A stretch of 33,463 nt of DNA from Fimbriimonadaceae bacterium (GTDB lineage Bacteria; Armatimonadota; Fimbriimonadia; Fimbriimonadales; Fimbriimonadaceae), in assembly GCA_019638835.1 (NCBI GenBank), contig JAHBTC010000021.1:1-33463 (forward strand), written 5' to 3'. Position 1 is the first letter of the stretch. Each line of letters starts with the position of its first letter. Position numbers and translations under genes: made by a program. Under the pieces are notes generated by a model. The model did not search any database and was not told where the DNA came from. It worked only from the letters and a program-made list of their open reading frames with translations. Below are positions 10,568-19,812 of the stretch, piece after piece.

Positions 10568-10592
10568 GCCTCAACCCCGCGAGGGCTGAGGC
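10568..10592 (-). repeat. 25-bp palindromic repeat, copy 1
   Basis: Plus-strand arms GCCTCAACCC and GGGCTGAGGC flank a 5-nt centre CGCGA. Read on the minus strand it matches copy 2 at all arm positions. The minus-strand repeat is preceded by AT, as in copy 2, and its TGA is the stop codon of the RHS fragment. Confidence 0.85.
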
Positions 10593-11044
10593 ATCTCAAA
10601 CCGAGCGGTGGACGGGTCGTAGTAGCGGGGGCCGAGGAGTTTGAAGCCGCCGTCGTCTTCTTGGTAGCCGAAGCCGCCCGCATAGCCGAAACGGCCTTGC
10701 CACGTGCCGGTGGAAGAGAGTTCCGCGCCAAAGGCGTCATAGACGCGGGACGCACTGACGGTCCCGCCCGTGTTCGTTTGCGCGTCAGCGTTCTTCATGC
10801 CGGAATGCAAGAAGGTCGTGGTAGTACCCCGCCGCTCTGAAATCGAAGGCGTGTACTTCGCGGCTCCGTCGCCAATCACCGGATCAGTGACGTATTCGCC
10901 ATCCCGCTTGAACGTCCGTGAAACCGAGTTCTGCGTTGTCGCCACCCGTGTATCGCGGCCGTCGTGGCATGCCCTCCCAACTACGTAATCATGGGGAAGG
11001 GCGGTCTGACGTAGTTCATGAATGACGGACCAACTGCTACTCAT
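10571..11044 (-). pseudogene. Truncated RHS-repeat core fragment
   Basis: A 157-codon frame whose second half is clearly the end of an RHS/YD-repeat core: SRVYDAFGAELSSTGTWQG, FGYAGGFGYQ and GPRYYDPSTARF. In intact RHS proteins a further conserved segment and a variable toxin domain follow the last motif. Here the frame instead enters a 25-bp palindromic repeat, reads MPQPSRG and stops. The large upstream beta-cocoon region is absent. The frame overlaps the stop of the upstream ORF by 8 bp. I read it as a displaced or decayed RHS C-terminal module, but expression as a small protein cannot be excluded. Confidence 0.72.
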
Positions 11045-11958: not shown

Positions 11959-12717
11959 ATGCTGGAGATCAGAAACCTGCACGCCCGAGTCGAGGAGAAA
12001 GAGATTCTCAGGGGAATTGACCTCACCGTCCGGCCCGGCGAAGTCCACGCGATCATGGGCCCGAACGGGAGCGGAAAGAGCACCCTCGCCAACGTCCTCG
12101 CGGGCCGCGAAGATTACGAAGTCACCGACGGCACCATCCAACTCGAAGGCGAAGATCTGCTGGAGATGGAGCCCGATGCCCGTGCCCACGCCGGGGTGTT
12201 CCTCGCTTTCCAGTATCCGGTCGAGATTCCGGGGGTCAGCAACGTTTACTTCCTGCGCTCGGCCCTGAACGCCATCCGCAAAGCGCGGGGCGAAGAGGAG
12301 ATGGATTCCATGAAGTTCATGGCTTATATCCGCGAGAAGATCAAACTTCTTGGTCTGAAGGATGAACTGCTCCAACGAAGCGTGAATGAAGGGTTTTCCG
12401 GCGGCGAAAAGAAGCGCAATGAGATCTTCCAGATGGCCGTACTTGAGCCCCGACTCTGCGTGTTGGACGAAACCGATTCTGGGCTGGACATTGACGCCCT
12501 GCAGACCGTTGCGCACGGGGTGAATTCGCTTCGCTCGGCGGATCGCGGTTTCGTGGTCGTGACCCACTACCAGCGACTGTTGAACTTCATCGTGCCTGAC
12601 TATGTACACGTTATGGTGGATGGCCGATTGGTGAAGAGTGGCGGCAAGGAACTGGCCCTAGAGCTCGAAGAAAAAGGATATGGCTGGATCGAAGCGGAAG
12701 TGGCGGCCCAGGCATGA
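11959..12717 (+). CDS. sufC: Fe-S cluster assembly ATPase SufC
   Basis: ABC-type ATPase of the SUF Fe-S cluster assembly scaffold; it forms a complex with SufB and SufD in the cytoplasm. Walker A GPNGSGKST is at residues 34-42, the signature FSGGEKKR at 146-153 and Walker B CVLDETDSGLD at 167-177, the last two being the forms specific to SufC. The 252-residue length is normal. It overlaps sufD by ATGA (12714-12717). The usual upstream partner sufB is missing; the RHS island lies there instead. TAGACT at 11941-11946 is a possible -10 box 12 nt before the ATG. Confidence 0.97.
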   Translation: MLEIRNLHARVEEKEILRGIDLTVRPGEVHAIMGPNGSGKSTLANVLAGREDYEVTDGTIQLEGEDLLEMEPDARAHAGVFLAFQYPVEIPGVSNVYFLRSALNAIRKARGEEEMDSMKFMAYIREKIKLLGLKDELLQRSVNEGFSGGEKKRNEIFQMAVLEPRLCVLDETDSGLDIDALQTVAHGVNSLRSADRGFVVVTHYQRLLNFIVPDYVHVMVDGRLVKSGGKELALELEEKGYGWIEAEVAAQA

Positions 12718-14024
12718 GCGCCGTGCTCACCCGATACGAAACGACTTGGCCTAACGTTGAAGCCGTCGCTCAAGCGCACATCGGAGAGGGCCCGTTGTGG
12801 CTGCGAAACCTGCGTTCACGCGGCCTTCGCGTGTTTCAAGAGTTAGGCATCCCGACTCCGAAGGTTGAGGAGTGGAAGTACACCCCCCTTCGCGATATCG
12901 CTGAGCGAAAGTGGGAGTTGGCCGAGCCTGGCCCGGCATGGTTCGAGCCCGCTCTTCCTTCGTTTGTTGAAGGCGCGGTGCGCATCGTCTTGGTCAACGG
13001 CCGTTTCGATGCAAACCTAAGTGATTTTCCCCGTTTGCCCGGACTTACCGTAAGCCCGATCCGCGAGGCTCTGACCGACGATGCGAATCCGGTTAGCGCC
13101 GTGCTTGGCACAATCGCGCGGATCGAAAAGCACCCGTTTGGAGCCCTTGCGACTGCCTTGTTCGAAGATGGCGTGTACGTCCATTTGGCGACGGGCTCGG
13201 TGATCGAGTCGCTTATTGAGATCGTCCATGTGACGAGCGGTGAAGGCGGGGTGTGCGCCCCCCGCGTCTTGATCGTAGCCGAGAAAGATTCAGTGGCGAA
13301 GATCGTTGAGGTCTATGTCACGGATGGCGCGGCAGATTCTCTGACATTGCCGGTGACCGAGGTGATTGTGGAGCGAGGCGCAAACCTGGAGCACGTCCGG
13401 GTGCAAGACGAAGCCACCACCAACGCCCACATTGCGTTGTGGGAGACCCGGCAGGCCGAAGGCAGTGAGTACCGGTCTTACAACGTCGCATTTGGGGGCC
13501 GGCTCGCCCGTACCGATCAAGGCATTGACCTGCAGGGCGAACACTGCATCACACGGCTAGACGGTGTCGTGGCGGCGACCGGCAATCAGTTGATTGACAA
13601 CCATACACGGCTTGACCACGCTCTTCCCAACTGCAACTCGTTTGAGATTTACAAGCAGGTGATTGACGATGAGGCTACGGTGGTGTTCAACGGACAGATT
13701 TTTGTCCACGCCCACGCGCAGAAGACCGACGCAAAGCAGACGAACCAGGCTCTGCTGATGAGCCCGAAGGCAACGATCAACTCGAAGCCGCAGTTGGAAA
13801 TCTTTGCGGACGACGTAAAGTGCACCCACGGGGCGACCGTCGGACAACTGGAAGACCTGCCGCTCTTCTACATGAGACAGCGGGGGATCCCTCAAGAGAT
13901 GGCGGAAAGCCTTCTGGTCTACGCTTTCGCGGCTGAAGTTCTGGAACTCATCTCGGTGGATGAAGTGAAACGCGACCTTGAGGCTCGCCTCGATCGCAAG
14001 CTCGGCACCGAACCCCTTCGCTAG
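12714..14024 (+). CDS. sufD: Fe-S cluster assembly protein SufD
   Basis: SufB/SufD-family beta-helix protein of the SufBCD scaffold. The N-terminal EEWKYTPL motif (residues 52-59) and 436-residue length favour SufD over SufB. The C-terminal core carries CTHGATVGQ, with the His conserved in SufD, followed by LFYMRQRGIPQEMAE and the final helix that contacts SufC. The central parallel beta-helix region is present (VIVERGANLEHVRVQDE). It is translationally coupled to sufC. Its stop codon overlaps that of the convergent membrane gene (CTAG, 14021-14024). Because no sufB is near, a scaffold made of SufC with SufD alone, or a distant sufB, must be assumed. Confidence 0.93.
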   Translation: MSAVLTRYETTWPNVEAVAQAHIGEGPLWLRNLRSRGLRVFQELGIPTPKVEEWKYTPLRDIAERKWELAEPGPAWFEPALPSFVEGAVRIVLVNGRFDANLSDFPRLPGLTVSPIREALTDDANPVSAVLGTIARIEKHPFGALATALFEDGVYVHLATGSVIESLIEIVHVTSGEGGVCAPRVLIVAEKDSVAKIVEVYVTDGAADSLTLPVTEVIVERGANLEHVRVQDEATTNAHIALWETRQAEGSEYRSYNVAFGGRLARTDQGIDLQGEHCITRLDGVVAATGNQLIDNHTRLDHALPNCNSFEIYKQVIDDEATVVFNGQIFVHAHAQKTDAKQTNQALLMSPKATINSKPQLEIFADDVKCTHGATVGQLEDLPLFYMRQRGIPQEMAESLLVYAFAAEVLELISVDEVKRDLEARLDRKLGTEPLR

Positions 14025-14419
14025 TCGGTGACGGCTTTTTCGGAGTGAAGGCGAAGCAGCATCGCTTCATCTTCACTCAATCCTTCCGGATACCAGGCGA
14101 ACACCTTTCCCTTCCGCACATCCAAGGCACCCATCTCACCAGCTTTCAGCACCTGTGCAATCTTGGGGCCGATCTCGTAGGTGTCTCGCTCGCCCGTGGA
14201 CAGAATGACTCTCACTTTTCCGAGAGTTTCTCCTTTAGGGGGTTCAACTTCGGTGATGGCGACGGCGGTAAAGCCGACTTGGGCGGTGCTCCCAAAGCGG
14301 CCCGTCATGGCGACAACGAAGATTGCGAACAGGATCAGGGCTACGACCGTCATCGCCAAATAGACCCCGAGTTCGCTCGGCGGCACTTTCTCTAGCTTGA
14401 TCGCCGCGACAATCCACAT
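14021..14419 (-). CDS. Single-pass membrane protein of unknown function
   Basis: A 132-residue protein with one clear membrane helix at about residues 17-39 (LGVYLAMTVVALILFAIFVVAM). A soluble C-terminal domain follows with beta-strand pattern (VGFTAVAITEVE, KVRVILSTGERDTYEIG), ending in a helical acidic tail (SEDEAMLLRLHSEKA). I do not recognise the family. A TATGCT box on the minus strand at 14429-14434 would place transcription 3 nt before the ATG. Convergent with sufD, sharing stop bases. Confidence 0.75.
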   Translation of the reverse strand: MWIVAAIKLEKVPPSELGVYLAMTVVALILFAIFVVAMTGRFGSTAQVGFTAVAITEVEPPKGETLGKVRVILSTGERDTYEIGPKIAQVLKAGEMGALDVRKGKVFAWYPEGLSEDEAMLLRLHSEKAVTD

Positions 14420-14496
14420 CTCAACTTGAGCATACGTCGCGGGTAGCGGTTGGGTGCTGGGGCTCGCCGAGAGAAGACCGGTTCAACCGTCGTATC

Positions 14497-14871
14497 ATGA
14501 AAGGCAACACAACTATGCCGGAACCGATCCCAACACCGCCCCCCGAGGGTTTGAACACGATTCAGCGCAGCTTGCTAGAAGGTGAAGTGATTGAAGCGAT
14601 CCGTGAGGTCTATGACCCCGAGATTCCCGTCAACGTCTACGACTTGGGCTTGATCTACGGGATTGTGATCTCGCCTGACGCCCAGGTGGATATCACAATG
14701 ACGCTGACAAACCCAGCATGCCCGGTCGCCGATATTCTGCCCGGGCAAGTCGAGACGGCTGCCGCTTCCGTACCAGGCGTGAAAGAAGCAAGGGTTGAAC
14801 TGGTTTGGGATCCTCCCTACACTCTCGACCGCGTGCCCGAGCACATTCGGCTTGATTTGGGCCTGTTGTAA
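14497..14871 (+). CDS. sufT: SufT/MIP18-type (DUF59) Fe-S maturation protein
   Basis: Small protein of the MIP18/PaaD (DUF59) family, linked to Fe-S protein maturation. The family pattern is clear: IREVYDPEIPVNVYDLGLIYGI, then TMTLTNPACPVADILPGQV with the conserved Cys, and VELVWDPPYTLDRV. Two ATGs are possible: 14497, or 14515 (MPEPIPTPPPEG), which has AAAGG 10 nt upstream and may be the real start. Its place between sufCD and an Rrf2-IscA pair supports the SufT label. PaaD of phenylacetate oxidation is a homologue, but no paa genes are here. Confidence 0.88.
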   Translation: MKGNTTMPEPIPTPPPEGLNTIQRSLLEGEVIEAIREVYDPEIPVNVYDLGLIYGIVISPDAQVDITMTLTNPACPVADILPGQVETAAASVPGVKEARVELVWDPPYTLDRVPEHIRLDLGLL

Positions 14872-14926
14872 GGCAGAATCTTGCGCCGAACGGTGAACTG
14901 CGACGGCTTTCTGTCAAACTGATTTC

Positions 14927-15412
14927 ATGAAGTTCAGTGCCCAAGAGGAGTTCGGGTTGAGGTGTCTCATCTCGCTGGCTCGCGAGGGTGAGGGCGGATT
15001 TCTCACAATTCCCCAAATCAGTGAGCGGGAGGCGCTGAGCCAGAGCCATGCGGCGAAGTTACTCTCGGCTTTACGAAAGGCAGGTTTTGTCACGAGTGTT
15101 AGGGGACAACTTGGCGGCTACTCCTTGGCACGAGAAGCGAAGGACATTTCAATCCCAGAAGTGTTGATTGCACTTGGAGGGCGACTATACGACAGCGGCT
15201 TCTGTATGCGTCACAGCGGTCAAGCCGACACGTGTGTCCACGATACGGATTGTTCGCTTCGTCCCTTGTGGAACGCCGTGCAGAACGCCGTTGACCGGGC
15301 CGTGGCGTCCTACACTCTTGCCGACCTCTTGGAGGGGACAGTGAATGCGCCTAACGCCGTAATGCAGTCCCGGCCACCGGAACGGCTACAAGCATCGGGC
15401 GCGTCGAAATAG
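14927..15412 (+). CDS. Rrf2-family Fe-S-type transcriptional regulator
   Basis: A 161-residue Rrf2/IscR-type winged-helix regulator. The N-terminus has the family form MKFSAQEEFGLRCLISLAR, followed by the recognition helix and wing (SQSHAAKLLSALRKAGFVTSVRG, LGGYSLARE). Three cysteines, Cys93, Cys103 and Cys109 (FCMRH...TCVHDTDC), sit where IscR/SufR proteins hold an Fe-S cluster. It lies 7 bp before an IscA-type gene and close to suf genes, so it probably senses Fe-S status and controls this neighbourhood. I could not identify its operator. TCAAACT just before the start is near a -10 consensus only. Confidence 0.92.
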   Translation: MKFSAQEEFGLRCLISLAREGEGGFLTIPQISEREALSQSHAAKLLSALRKAGFVTSVRGQLGGYSLAREAKDISIPEVLIALGGRLYDSGFCMRHSGQADTCVHDTDCSLRPLWNAVQNAVDRAVASYTLADLLEGTVNAPNAVMQSRPPERLQASGASK

Positions 15413-15419
15413 AGGACTG

Positions 15420-15764
15420 ATGAGCGACTTCCCCGTGATCATTTCTCCGGATGCGCTGGCGCAGGCCAAGGCGATCCTCGCCCGAAAAGCGCCGGATTCG
15501 TTTCTACGGATCGGTGTCAAGGGTGGTGGTTGCACGGGCATGGAATACGTCGTCCGCCCCGAAACGAAGGTGTTACCCATCGACCTCGTCACCGAGGTGG
15601 ACGGTTTGCAGATCGTGTGCGACGGCAAGTCGGCCGAGTTTCTTCGCGGAGCAACCATGAACTGGGACGGGAACCTCCTGACGGGCGGATTCCGGTTTGA
15701 CAACCCAAACGCGGCACGCTCCTGCGGTTGCGGCACTAGTTTCACACCGAAGCGGACTGCTTAG
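15420..15764 (+). CDS. A-type Fe-S carrier (IscA/ErpA/SufA family)
   Basis: Cluster carrier or iron donor in Fe-S assembly. The three invariant cysteines are at Cys38 (GGGCTG), Cys102 and Cys104 (SCGCGTSF), and the FRFDNPNA segment is typical of the HesB fold. The length of 114 residues is normal. An AGAGGA ribosome site lies just upstream, and the gene is 7 bp after the Rrf2 regulator, so the two form an operon. IscA, SufA and ErpA cannot be told apart by motif alone. Its stop overlaps that of convergent csaA (TTAG, 15761-15764). Confidence 0.94.
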
Positions 15765-16102: not shown

Positions 16103-16348
16103 TGATGGATGCTATCCGACTTGAACCCTCACGGATTACTTTCCGATCAGATGGGTATTACTTTCTGGGTTGACCTTCTGTCTGTCGCCGTGCTAGGTTC
16201 AATTCGGTCCCCGTGAAAATACATGGAGTACATCGGGAAACGTATCGCTTTGGGACGGGAACCGATTGTCTTCACATTTTGAGAGCCGCGCGATTTCTAT
16301 ATGCGATGTGGACGGTCGATGGGTCTTAGTTCGATGCTCATCAAACTA

Positions 16349-16371
16349 TTCGATATCTATCGAAGTATAAT
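16349..16371 (+). promoter_or_regulatory. arsR-type promoter and operator, leaderless
   Basis: The dyad TTCGAT-ATCT-ATCGAA at 16349-16364 runs into a perfect TATAAT -10 box at 16366-16371. By standard spacing the transcript would begin at 16378, the A of the arsR start codon. A repressor on the dyad would block polymerase. No clear -35 element is seen, and there is no Shine-Dalgarno sequence. Confidence 0.65.
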
Positions 16372-16377
16372 AACGTT

Positions 16378-16755
16378 ATGAGTGAAGTGCTCCGCAAAGT
16401 CCAAGTGCTGGCCGATGCAACCCGATTTGCCGTGTTTGAGTGCATCAGGGGTTGTGCGGTGAACTGCGAAGACGGGGTTTGCACGTTTGCGGATGGCGAC
16501 GAGGGTTTGGCCGCTATCTGCGACGTGCGATGCCAAGTGCATTGTGCCCCTAGCACCATGACCCACCACCTGAACGCCTTGCGCGAAGCGGGCTTGATCG
16601 AAACGGAGAGACGTGGTCGTAACCTCTTCGCCCGGATCGTGCCTGGCGCCCTCGCCGAACTCGCCCAGCATTTCGACCCGATTCGACATCCCGGAGGCGC
16701 ATCTTCATGCGGTTGCGCTTCCCCGACTCAACCAATGGAGGTAGGAAGCCAATGA
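16378..16755 (+). CDS. Cys-rich ArsR/SmtB-type metal-responsive repressor
   Basis: A 125-residue winged-helix protein of the ArsR/SmtB type. The recognition helix and wing are clear: PSTMTHHLNALREAGLIETERRGRNLFARI. Between the first helix and the recognition helix lies an unusual insertion of about 30 residues with seven Cys (22, 26, 30, 35, 48, 52, 56) and nearby His55, His63 and His64; two more Cys (111, 113) are in the C-terminal tail. Known ArsR-family repressors sense thiophilic metals through such Cys/His groups, so this probably releases DNA on metal binding. The start is set by the TATAAT box 6 nt upstream. Its stop overlaps the ATG of a 25-codon Cys-rich gene by ATGA, so it likely controls that gene and itself. 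Confidence 0.9.
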   Translation: MSEVLRKVQVLADATRFAVFECIRGCAVNCEDGVCTFADGDEGLAAICDVRCQVHCAPSTMTHHLNALREAGLIETERRGRNLFARIVPGALAELAQHFDPIRHPGGASSCGCASPTQPMEVGSQ

Positions 16756-16829
16756 ATAAGGACTGTCCTTGTTGTGGTGGCGGCGAGTGCACTTGCGCTC
16801 CCGGTTGCACTTGTTGCGACTGCTGCTGA
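16752..16829 (+). CDS. 25-residue Cys-rich micro-metallothionein
   Basis: A 25-codon gene beginning MNKDCPCC and ending TCCDCC. Ten of 25 residues are Cys (5, 7, 8, 13, 15, 19, 21, 22, 24, 25), arranged as CXCC, CXC and CXCCXCC; there is no His or aromatic residue. Such composition is typical of metallothioneins. The length resembles the 25-residue copper thioneins of some fungi and is about half that of bacterial SmtA/BmtA or MymT. Translation signals are strong: GGAGGT at 16737-16742, 9 nt before the ATG, and an ATGA overlap with arsR. An intrinsic terminator follows 7 bp after the stop. Probable role: binding of Cu(I), Zn, Cd or a similar metal under control of the ArsR repressor. The metal is unknown and no relatedness to a named family was tested. 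Confidence 0.82.
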   Translation: MNKDCPCCGGGECTCAPGCTCCDCC

Positions 16830-16836
16830 TAGGAAG

Positions 16837-16865
16837 GAGCCCGGCCCCGTAAGGAGGTCGGGCTC
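16837..16865 (+). terminator. Intrinsic terminator after arsR-metallothionein operon
   Basis: Arms 16837-16846 (GAGCCCGGCC) and 16856-16865 (GGTCGGGCTC) form a 10-bp stem with one G-U pair and a 9-nt loop, followed by GTATTATCTATTC. It lies between two convergent genes and could serve both. Its arm GAGCCCG recurs in the pnp terminator. Confidence 0.7.
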
Positions 16866-18302: not shown

Positions 18303-18351
18303 GTCGTTATAGGCGTCGCACTTGTTGGCGTCGCCTGAGCGAGACGACTGT

Positions 18352-19812
18352 ATGAATCACACTCGAACCGTACTTCCCGGTCTGGAAGTAACTCTCGTCG
18401 CACACAAAGACGAGATTCATTCGTTGCTCCTAGCAACTTTAGAAGCTACTAAGTCAGAAAGCCTGGCCGTACGAACTCCGCTGCGGATTGCTTTGGTGAT
18501 CGATAAGAGTGGCTCCATGGGTGGCGACAAACTCGAGATCACGAAAGCCGCTGTAGCCCAGTTCATTCGTACACTGGCCCCGGAAGATCGCGTGGCCGTC
18601 GTTGCTTATGATGATCAAGTGGATGTTCTTTGTGGGCTGGAGGCACCAACAGAAGCGCTTGCGCACCGAGTGGAACACCTGCGGACGGGCGGTAGCACAA
18701 ATCTGTACGGTGGATGGGTGACTGGCGCAAAGATTGTTGGCAATGGTGGGCGCGTCATTCTTCTCTCTGATGGAATGGCGAACGTAGGTCGGTTGACCGA
18801 TGCACAATCGCTTTCAAAACACGCTTTGATCTCATTCGAGAATTACGGAGTGACGACGACGACGATCGGTGTTGGACGAGATTACGACGAAGGATTGATG
18901 GCAGGCATGGCGCAAGCGGGCGGAGGCGCCCACTACTTCGCGCACACTGCAGAATCTATCACGGAAGCGTTTGATCAGGAGCGATACTCTGCGAGCGCAG
19001 TTGTTCTGGAAAGGCTTACGATCAAGTGCAACGGTGTAGATGAACAACTCGGCCACTTTTGGGGCGGAGAGACAAAGAAGAGGGTGTTCGAAGTGAAAGA
19101 CCTCAGTTCGCTTGATTTCAAGATCCACTATCTCAACAAAGAGACTGGCCAGCAAGTCAGCGATTCAGTCACGCTACCAGTTGCTTTCGGGCATTCCGAC
19201 GAAGCCACATTGGAACTCCTGCTGCGACAAGCCAGCAAAGCCGAAGGCGAGATGCTTTCCGTTCGAAATCCGAACGCGGCGACTCAGATGAAGGAACGAC
19301 TCCGAGGCATCGTTCTCAACATATTGGCTCATCCAAAGAGTGACGAACCAATGGTAGCCGGGGTCATTTCCAGGCTCAAAGCATCCATCGCAAGATTGGA
19401 AGTACTCGAAAGGAACTACATTGAGGAGGAGGCAATGTTGCATCGCAAGCGGAGCATGCAAACAAGCTTCAATATGCGAGAAAGAGCGAAGGGTTTTTCA
19501 TCGTTTGAAGATGAGAAAGACATGGTTCGCGAAACAGCAATGGCCTATTCGCAGAAAATTGCTAATGAGAGGCTCGAGTTCGCTATTCCTGCTCTGGAGC
19601 TAGCCCCTTTGGATTCCTGGATTCAATGGAGAGCAATTCCAATCGAGGTTACAGACAATTTGATCACAGTTGCGATGGAGGACTCGCGCAAAGGCTTCCT
19701 GATTAGCGAGATCGAGAGAGCGACCAATCGTCGAGTACAGGCTGTATTCACGACAAGATCGGTGGAAGAAATCCTCAGAGACTTCCGCACGCAGAGAACT
19801 CTCTTTTCCTAA
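18352..19812 (+). CDS. vWA-domain protein with MshEN/GspE-N-like C-terminus
   Basis: A 486-residue soluble protein with no signal peptide. A vWA domain fills about residues 44-215, with a complete MIDAS: DKSGS at 51-55, Thr116 (GGSTNLYGG) and Asp140 (LLSDG). A beta-rich segment follows (about 216-280), then a long helical region (285-400), and a C-terminal module (about 418-480: LDSWIQWRAIPIEV, ITVAMEDSRKGFLISEIERATNRRVQAVF, VEEILRDF). That module resembles the MshEN/GspE-N domain of type II secretion and type IV pilus ATPases, some of which bind c-di-GMP. The fusion is unusual. ATG 18352 is preferred over an upstream TTG because the promoter at 18271-18302 fits it. Function is unknown; probable target of the upstream MerR-like regulator. 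Confidence 0.85.
   Translation: MNHTRTVLPGLEVTLVAHKDEIHSLLLATLEATKSESLAVRTPLRIALVIDKSGSMGGDKLEITKAAVAQFIRTLAPEDRVAVVAYDDQVDVLCGLEAPTEALAHRVEHLRTGGSTNLYGGWVTGAKIVGNGGRVILLSDGMANVGRLTDAQSLSKHALISFENYGVTTTTIGVGRDYDEGLMAGMAQAGGGAHYFAHTAESITEAFDQERYSASAVVLERLTIKCNGVDEQLGHFWGGETKKRVFEVKDLSSLDFKIHYLNKETGQQVSDSVTLPVAFGHSDEATLELLLRQASKAEGEMLSVRNPNAATQMKERLRGIVLNILAHPKSDEPMVAGVISRLKASIARLEVLERNYIEEEAMLHRKRSMQTSFNMRERAKGFSSFEDEKDMVRETAMAYSQKIANERLEFAIPALELAPLDSWIQWRAIPIEVTDNLITVAMEDSRKGFLISEIERATNRRVQAVFTTRSVEEILRDFRTQRTLFS

Follow-up and report, generated by a model that had tools for sequence, protein, structure and literature searches.

A Cys-rich ArsR-type repressor coupled to a putative 25-residue metallothionein in Armatimonadota

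Does a frame of only 25 codons, placed directly behind the gene for a Cys-rich ArsR-type repressor, encode a metallothionein that this repressor controls? The frame lies in a 33,463-nucleotide stretch of DNA (the window) from an Armatimonadota genome assembly of 2.74 Mb, which comprises 207 contigs and is 97.8% complete. An earlier note, made from the letters of the window, had described the two genes as a metal-responsive repressor and its thionein, and our analysis supports this interpretation. We consider it probable that the pair forms a metal-derepressed, autoregulated ArsR-micrometallothionein operon; this judgement concerns the general mechanism, and our confidence in any one metal is much lower. 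We infer the following course of repression, metal derepression and metal binding by the peptide. A dimer of the Cys-rich ArsR would occupy tandem TTCGATnnnnATCGAA operators, filling the spacer upstream of the −10 box and repressing its own promoter. A thiophilic metal ion would bind a Cys cluster (the end of α2, an inserted loop and α3) beside the recognition helix and release the repressor from DNA. Derepression would then yield ArsR together with a translationally coupled 25-residue thionein, whose 10 thiolates would chelate the metal until the promoter is repressed again. The features of the locus are collected in Table 1.

Table 1. Features of the ArsR-peptide locus, with positions in the window
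Feature	Position	Strand	Evidence or remark
Upstream operator copy O2, TTCGATGCTCATCAAA	16330..16345	+	Differs from the 6-4-6 palindrome at 1 position; 19 bp upstream of O1
Operator O1, TTCGATATCTATCGAA, a perfect palindrome	16349..16364	+	Genome-wide pattern matches; same site at relatives
−10 box TATAAT	16366..16371	+	Sequence; same spacing in L003, L008 and L009
ArsR-type repressor, 125 aa, 9 Cys	16378..16755	+	Pfam HTH_20/HTH_5; predicted winged helix; clade A
α2-α3 insertion loop, about residues 27–46, with C30 and C35	16456..16515	+	Low-confidence loop between predicted helices H14-27 and H47-53
Purine-rich ribosome-binding region of the peptide gene, TGGAGGTAGGAAGCCA	16736..16751	+	Sequence; Shine-Dalgarno-like sites at 9/9 loci
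Cys-rich peptide, 25 aa, 10 Cys, proposed micrometallothionein	16752..16829	+	ORF; Cys statistics; same-genus ortholog
Probable terminator hairpin 3′ of the peptide gene	16837..16865	+	−29.1 kcal/mol for the folded stretch, z −5.3

Both reading frames named in the earlier note are present, the repressor with its nine Cys (residues 22, 26, 30, 35, 48, 52, 56, 111 and 113) and, behind it, the peptide MNKDCPCCGGGECTCAPGCTCCDCC with 10 Cys; the two overlap by ATGA, as had been observed. The repressor exceeds the Pfam cut-offs of HTH_20 (E = 2.4e-7, 31 bits, cut-off 27) and HTH_5 (E = 1.2e-5, 25.5 bits, cut-off 22), as winged-helix regulators of the ArsR/SmtB type do, and reaches 46 bits against NCBIfam HTH_metalloreg, under its cut-off of 55. 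The peptide is 40% Cys, with CxCC and CxC motifs, and its sequence has the small size, Cys richness and CxC/CxxC pattern of metallothioneins in the broad sense. It has no matches in Pfam or NCBIfam, where its short length limits sensitivity. The repressor is probably a metal sensor and the peptide very likely serves as a sink for toxic metal.

The predicted structure of ArsR (mean pLDDT 78) is a winged helix normal for the family, with a disordered insertion of about residues 27–46 between α2 and α3. Structural matches of the model found with Foldseek are mostly ArsR-family proteins, and the closest solved folds belong to this family. SqrR and BigR, which are thiol sensors of the ArsR fold, are among both the structural and the profile matches. 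The earlier note had placed seven Cys in an insertion before the recognition helix. Seven Cys do precede α4, but only C30 and C35 lie within the inserted loop of the predicted structure. The loop is flanked by C22/C26 at the end of α2 on one side and, on the other, by C48/C52 on α3 and C56 in the turn that follows; C111/C113 belong to the tail. Five Cys (C22, C26, C35, C52 and C56) are invariant in the clade of ArsR proteins to which the window's repressor belongs (clade A, defined below), and only C26 and C52 of these are common to its sister, clade B. The conserved Cys are thus located in α2, the loop and α3, which is not the α5 site of SmtB-type zinc sensors. Similarity to the smtB profile is weak (E about 1e-4).

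The promoter proposed in the earlier note, a TATAAT box with a dyad, is found where expected, with the dyad (TTCGATatctATCGAA) at 16349–16364. That description had lacked a second copy, TTCGATgctcATCAAA at 16330–16345, which differs at one position. The resulting 6-4-6 operator, TTCGATnnnnATCGAA, lies directly before the −10 box and is tandem in the window; copies with the same 19-bp spacing are also present in L002, L003 and L004, and at several clade A ArsR genes the operator ends one base before the −10 box. The pattern TTYGATNNNNATCRAA has three matches in the whole 2.74-Mb genome, two of which are O1 and O2, and occurs once each in the related genomes G001 and G002, at the ortholog locus. 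The O1 site also precedes the ArsR-thionein pairs of G001, G002 and G045, as well as a thionein gene of G045 that lacks an ArsR. An operator with at most three mismatches lies over the promoter of 9 of the 11 clade A genes, compared to at most 5 in 500 shuffles. When the operator and −10 box were searched as one pattern across 291 genomes, nine matches were obtained; five are upstream of a gene for a Cys peptide or for its ArsR, one (in G150) is near another ArsR, and three look like chance, being inside or beside unrelated genes. Operator-like sites also occur upstream of most clade B genes, so we read TTCGATnnnnATCGAA as the probable operator of the whole ArsR subfamily, with no mark specific to thioneins. 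The idea of a thionein-specific operator was dropped on account of these sites in the arsenic-linked clade. In three clade B genomes described below, a variant of the operator, TTCTATnnnnATAGAA, occurs once in each of two, at the promoter of the repressor-peptide pair.

The ArsR start codon follows the −10 box after only 6 nt, both in the window (16366–16378) and in L003, L008, L009 and L012, which represent several genera; the ArsR transcripts are thus probably leaderless at these loci. At the other end of the unit, the hairpin that had been called an intrinsic terminator is strong, but its U-tract is imperfect, and consensus promoter and terminator scans gave zero calls in the region. It is therefore a likely intrinsic terminator, though not a clean one, and is perhaps shared with the convergent PPK2 gene. 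Comparable hairpins follow the peptide in L008, L003 and L148.

Conservation of the pair was examined in 291 Armatimonadota genomes, from which 107 distinct ArsR relatives were gathered and placed in a tree of short rows (120 columns). The window's repressor falls into clade A (n = 11, support 100/99), to which clade B (n = 96) is the sister. A profile built from the peptide alignment proved too weak at such length, recovering three genomes at E 0.05 across the 291 and giving the peptide itself only E 0.03 in its own genome, so the DNA that follows the ArsR genes was inspected for conservation instead. A Cys-rich ORF of 22–43 residues with a Shine-Dalgarno site lies directly downstream of 9 of the 107 genes, with sites of this kind before the ORF at all nine. 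Six of the 11 clade A genes carry such an ORF, of 25–43 codons: those of the window, G001, G002, G027 (28 aa), G045 (27 aa) and, in another family, G124 (43 aa). A Cys-rich ORF beside orthologous ArsR genes, which the earlier note had made the touchstone of its proposal, is thus seen within the genus, in other genera of the family and in another family.

G001 (contig CP021424.1, Armatimonadetes bacterium Uphvl-Ar2) and G002 belong to the same genus as the window and encode the ortholog peptide MSEKECPCCPGGECNCPEGCENCDCC, in which nine of the ten window Cys are kept. The nine kept Cys codons show only TGT/TGC swaps (three codons changed), whereas other codons change. Between G001 and G002, the 81-nt peptide gene is identical; the ArsR gene differs by 15 synonymous and 6 non-synonymous codon changes. 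Five clade A genes are without the peptide, and two of the five, from two genera, instead overlap a type IV pilin-like gene (N_methyl domain) by ATGA (L031:4309-5037 and L034:4315-5043), a rewired form of the operon.

The remaining three peptide ORFs belong to clade B, in three genomes of one genus, and encode 22–24 residue peptides that overlap ArsR by 23–26 nt. The three ArsRs form one clade (100/99), so this trio appears to be an independent coupling, or an ArsR swap; the association of repressor and peptide would then have arisen separately in a second ArsR clade. Among the other 93 clade B genes there is only one weak candidate, L125 (47 aa, 8 Cys). As the Cys spacing varies between genera, the peptides may not all descend from one homologous family. 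The recurrence of the pairs behind the same operator suggests that these very small bacterial metallothioneins are a genuine family that had escaped notice. When 84,980 species were scanned with the single ArsR sequence, no matches were returned, and an alignment-based scan, which is pattern-based and can miss divergent members, returned matches in Armatimonadota loci only. Among the papers searched, none dealt with thioneins of Armatimonadota.

A gene of G045 adds to this comparison. Here, the operator and −10 box stand before a 45-residue, 17-Cys peptide (MENETKTCGCACCADGCCEKCTCTTGGPCGCECCADGCCENCTCC, L148:5160-5297) with no ArsR. The peptide is tandem-duplicated, has zero Pfam matches, and its gene has its own hairpin at the 3′ side and adjoins genes for a Zn/Cd-type P1B-ATPase and a CusA/CzcA pump. 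This operator-driven gene is the strongest independent evidence for the peptides as genes under the ArsR. Two apparently secreted proteins encoded near thionein genes, L151:5573-5848 (91 aa, 16 Cys) and L148:6279-6452 (57 aa, 10 Cys), have no Pfam match and are perhaps periplasmic metal binders.

The neighbourhoods of the relatives bear on the ligand. Neighbour genes were named from profile matches, several of which are under the curated cut-offs of single-metal models. In the window, SUF genes and PPK2 are the neighbours and no metal transporter adjoins. In contrast to clade B, clade A has no ars genes near any of its 11 loci, so that the linkage expected of an arsenic-responsive ArsR is absent there. 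Several clade A genes are instead accompanied by CopA, a CsoR-family repressor and a YHS-thioredoxin protein in G061, by an RND metal-efflux set and the same YHS-thioredoxin protein in G124, and by CzcA-type pump, cation-diffusion and ZIP-like genes in L033. With Cu/Zn/Cd-type neighbours and no ars genes, the likeliest ligand of ArsR is a soft transition metal, either Cu(I) or Cd(II)/Zn(II). Fusions of a YHS domain to a TlpA/ResA-like thioredoxin are found near clade A ArsR genes in two families (L150:3744-4448 and L151:7006-7791), where they adjoin copper/metal efflux genes.

A different ligand would follow if ArsR responds to As(III)/Sb(III), the probable ligands of the sister clade, with the peptide as a thionein for arsenic. 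By a motif-based count, arsM, arsI, arsD, arsC, ACR3 or aquaporin genes are downstream of 85 of the 96 clade B ArsR genes, and this clade, by its gene content, is clearly arsenic-related. More distant relatives on actinobacterial plasmids head ars operons. The arsenic-type ArsRs (clade B; Rv2640c-like) have C26, C52, the insertion region and the operator in common with clade A, and the second ArsR-thionein coupling falls within clade B. However, clade A differs from them in its extra invariant Cys (C22, C35 and C56) as well as in its lack of ars neighbours, several of its members are among Cu/Zn/Cd genes, and G001 and G002 have another, separate ArsR accompanied by an arsD-like gene. As(III) is thus the less likely ligand of the window system, and we regard the arsenic reading as unlikely. 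We are likewise doubtful of a broader proposal, in which the peptides would be a class of bacterial micrometallothioneins not described before, taken up at least twice by arsenic-type ArsRs of Armatimonadota, with at least the clade B trio, and perhaps all of them, acting on arsenite. If true, it would provide a genetically encoded intracellular arsenic-sequestration peptide under ArsR control. According to a recent paper (PMC12093948), the ars operon has yielded no gene for sequestering arsenic inside the cell, which draws attention to the clade B trio.

The thiol sensors SqrR and BigR among the matches of ArsR, together with the YHS/thioredoxin-fold proteins near two clade A members, would fit a repressor that senses reactive sulfur or redox state. 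The peptide would then be real but no metal sink, acting as a redox or persulfide buffer, a copper-chaperone-like peptide or the precursor of a modified peptide. The metal-transporter neighbourhoods of the relatives argue against this, as do a Cys content and CxC/CxCC motifs typical of thioneins, an operon without a modifying enzyme, and the duplicated 17-Cys version beside metal pumps; we consider such a role improbable.

It is very unlikely that the short Cys-rich ORF behind a normal ArsR is accidental or left untranslated. Its length is under that usual for gene calling, and the ORF after the clade B ArsR of L125 is chance-like, but the probability of at least 10 Cys in 24 codons is about 1e-9 at the composition of the window, where, among 34,530 stop-free 25-codon frames, only overlapping frames of the peptide stretch contain at least 6 Cys; moreover, the ORF and its Shine-Dalgarno sites are kept across genera, and a stand-alone relative in G045 is driven by the operator. 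Finally, a small Cys-rich ORF with a hairpin behind it could resemble a Cys-responsive leader, but the notion that the Cys codons are a regulatory leader or attenuator with no useful peptide is hardly credible: the operon ends with the peptide gene, behind which come the hairpin and a convergent gene, and the stand-alone G045 copy likewise has a hairpin at its end and no obvious target of regulation beyond it.

For the metal-responsive operon that we favour, the closest analogs are cyanobacterial: SmtB-SmtA of Synechococcus, to which the earlier note had compared the pair, and BxmR-BmtA of Oscillatoria. Like the window locus, both link an ArsR-fold repressor to a small Cys-rich protein and have a promoter covered by an inverted repeat. 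The likeness holds at the level of function. It does not extend to the proteins themselves: the repressor is of another ArsR subfamily, with its Cys in α2, the loop and α3 rather than at α5, and neither the 25-residue nor the 45-residue peptide matches Metallothio_Pro, the Pfam family of BmtA/SmtA, for which short length limits sensitivity. The BxmR-BmtA genes form an operon, and smtB and smtA are arranged divergently (PMC8790569); compared to the latter, the window has one operon with an ATGA overlap. Its operator is a 6-4-6 TTCGAT palindrome, in contrast to the 12-2-12 repeat of the cyanobacterial systems.

The peptide also resembles the short Cu-thioneins of fungi. Those of Neurospora crassa and Agaricus bisporus have 26 residues and 7 Cys, spaced CXC-X5-CXC-X3-CXC-X2-C (PMC4755600). 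The window peptide is of the same size and contains this spacing exactly (shuffle p 0.002), although with three extra Cys. The same-genus orthologs have the fungal spacing for 6 of the 7 Cys (p 0.018), so that the complete Family 8 pattern is present in the window peptide only, and PDB entry 1t2y gives a marginal, non-significant match (E 8.5). A claim of homology to the fungal proteins was dropped, since the spacing is lost outside the genus, and convergence seems the more likely explanation.

Bacterial metallothioneins are known mainly as the BmtA, Pseudomonas and mycobacterial types. A class of 22–28 residues would stretch their sizes down to those of the shortest fungal Cu-thioneins, and thioneins would be shown to arise repeatedly beside ArsR repressors. 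The operator would serve as a simple signature for genes too short for standard annotation. Furthermore, an arsenic-linked clade and its thionein-linked sister would constitute a natural experiment in how ArsR proteins switch partner, and perhaps ligand.

Several other features of the window are recorded here. Directly upstream of the ArsR-thionein unit, at 11959–15764, is a set of SUF iron-sulfur cluster genes encoding an ABC ATPase, a SufBD-type protein, an FeS assembly protein, an Rrf2 regulator and a HesB-like protein. An orphan ORF at 10571–11044, with no Pfam match, is like the end of an RHS-repeat core (GPRYYDPSTARF). The protein encoded at 18322–19812 has a von Willebrand A domain and, at its C terminus, an MshEN domain.
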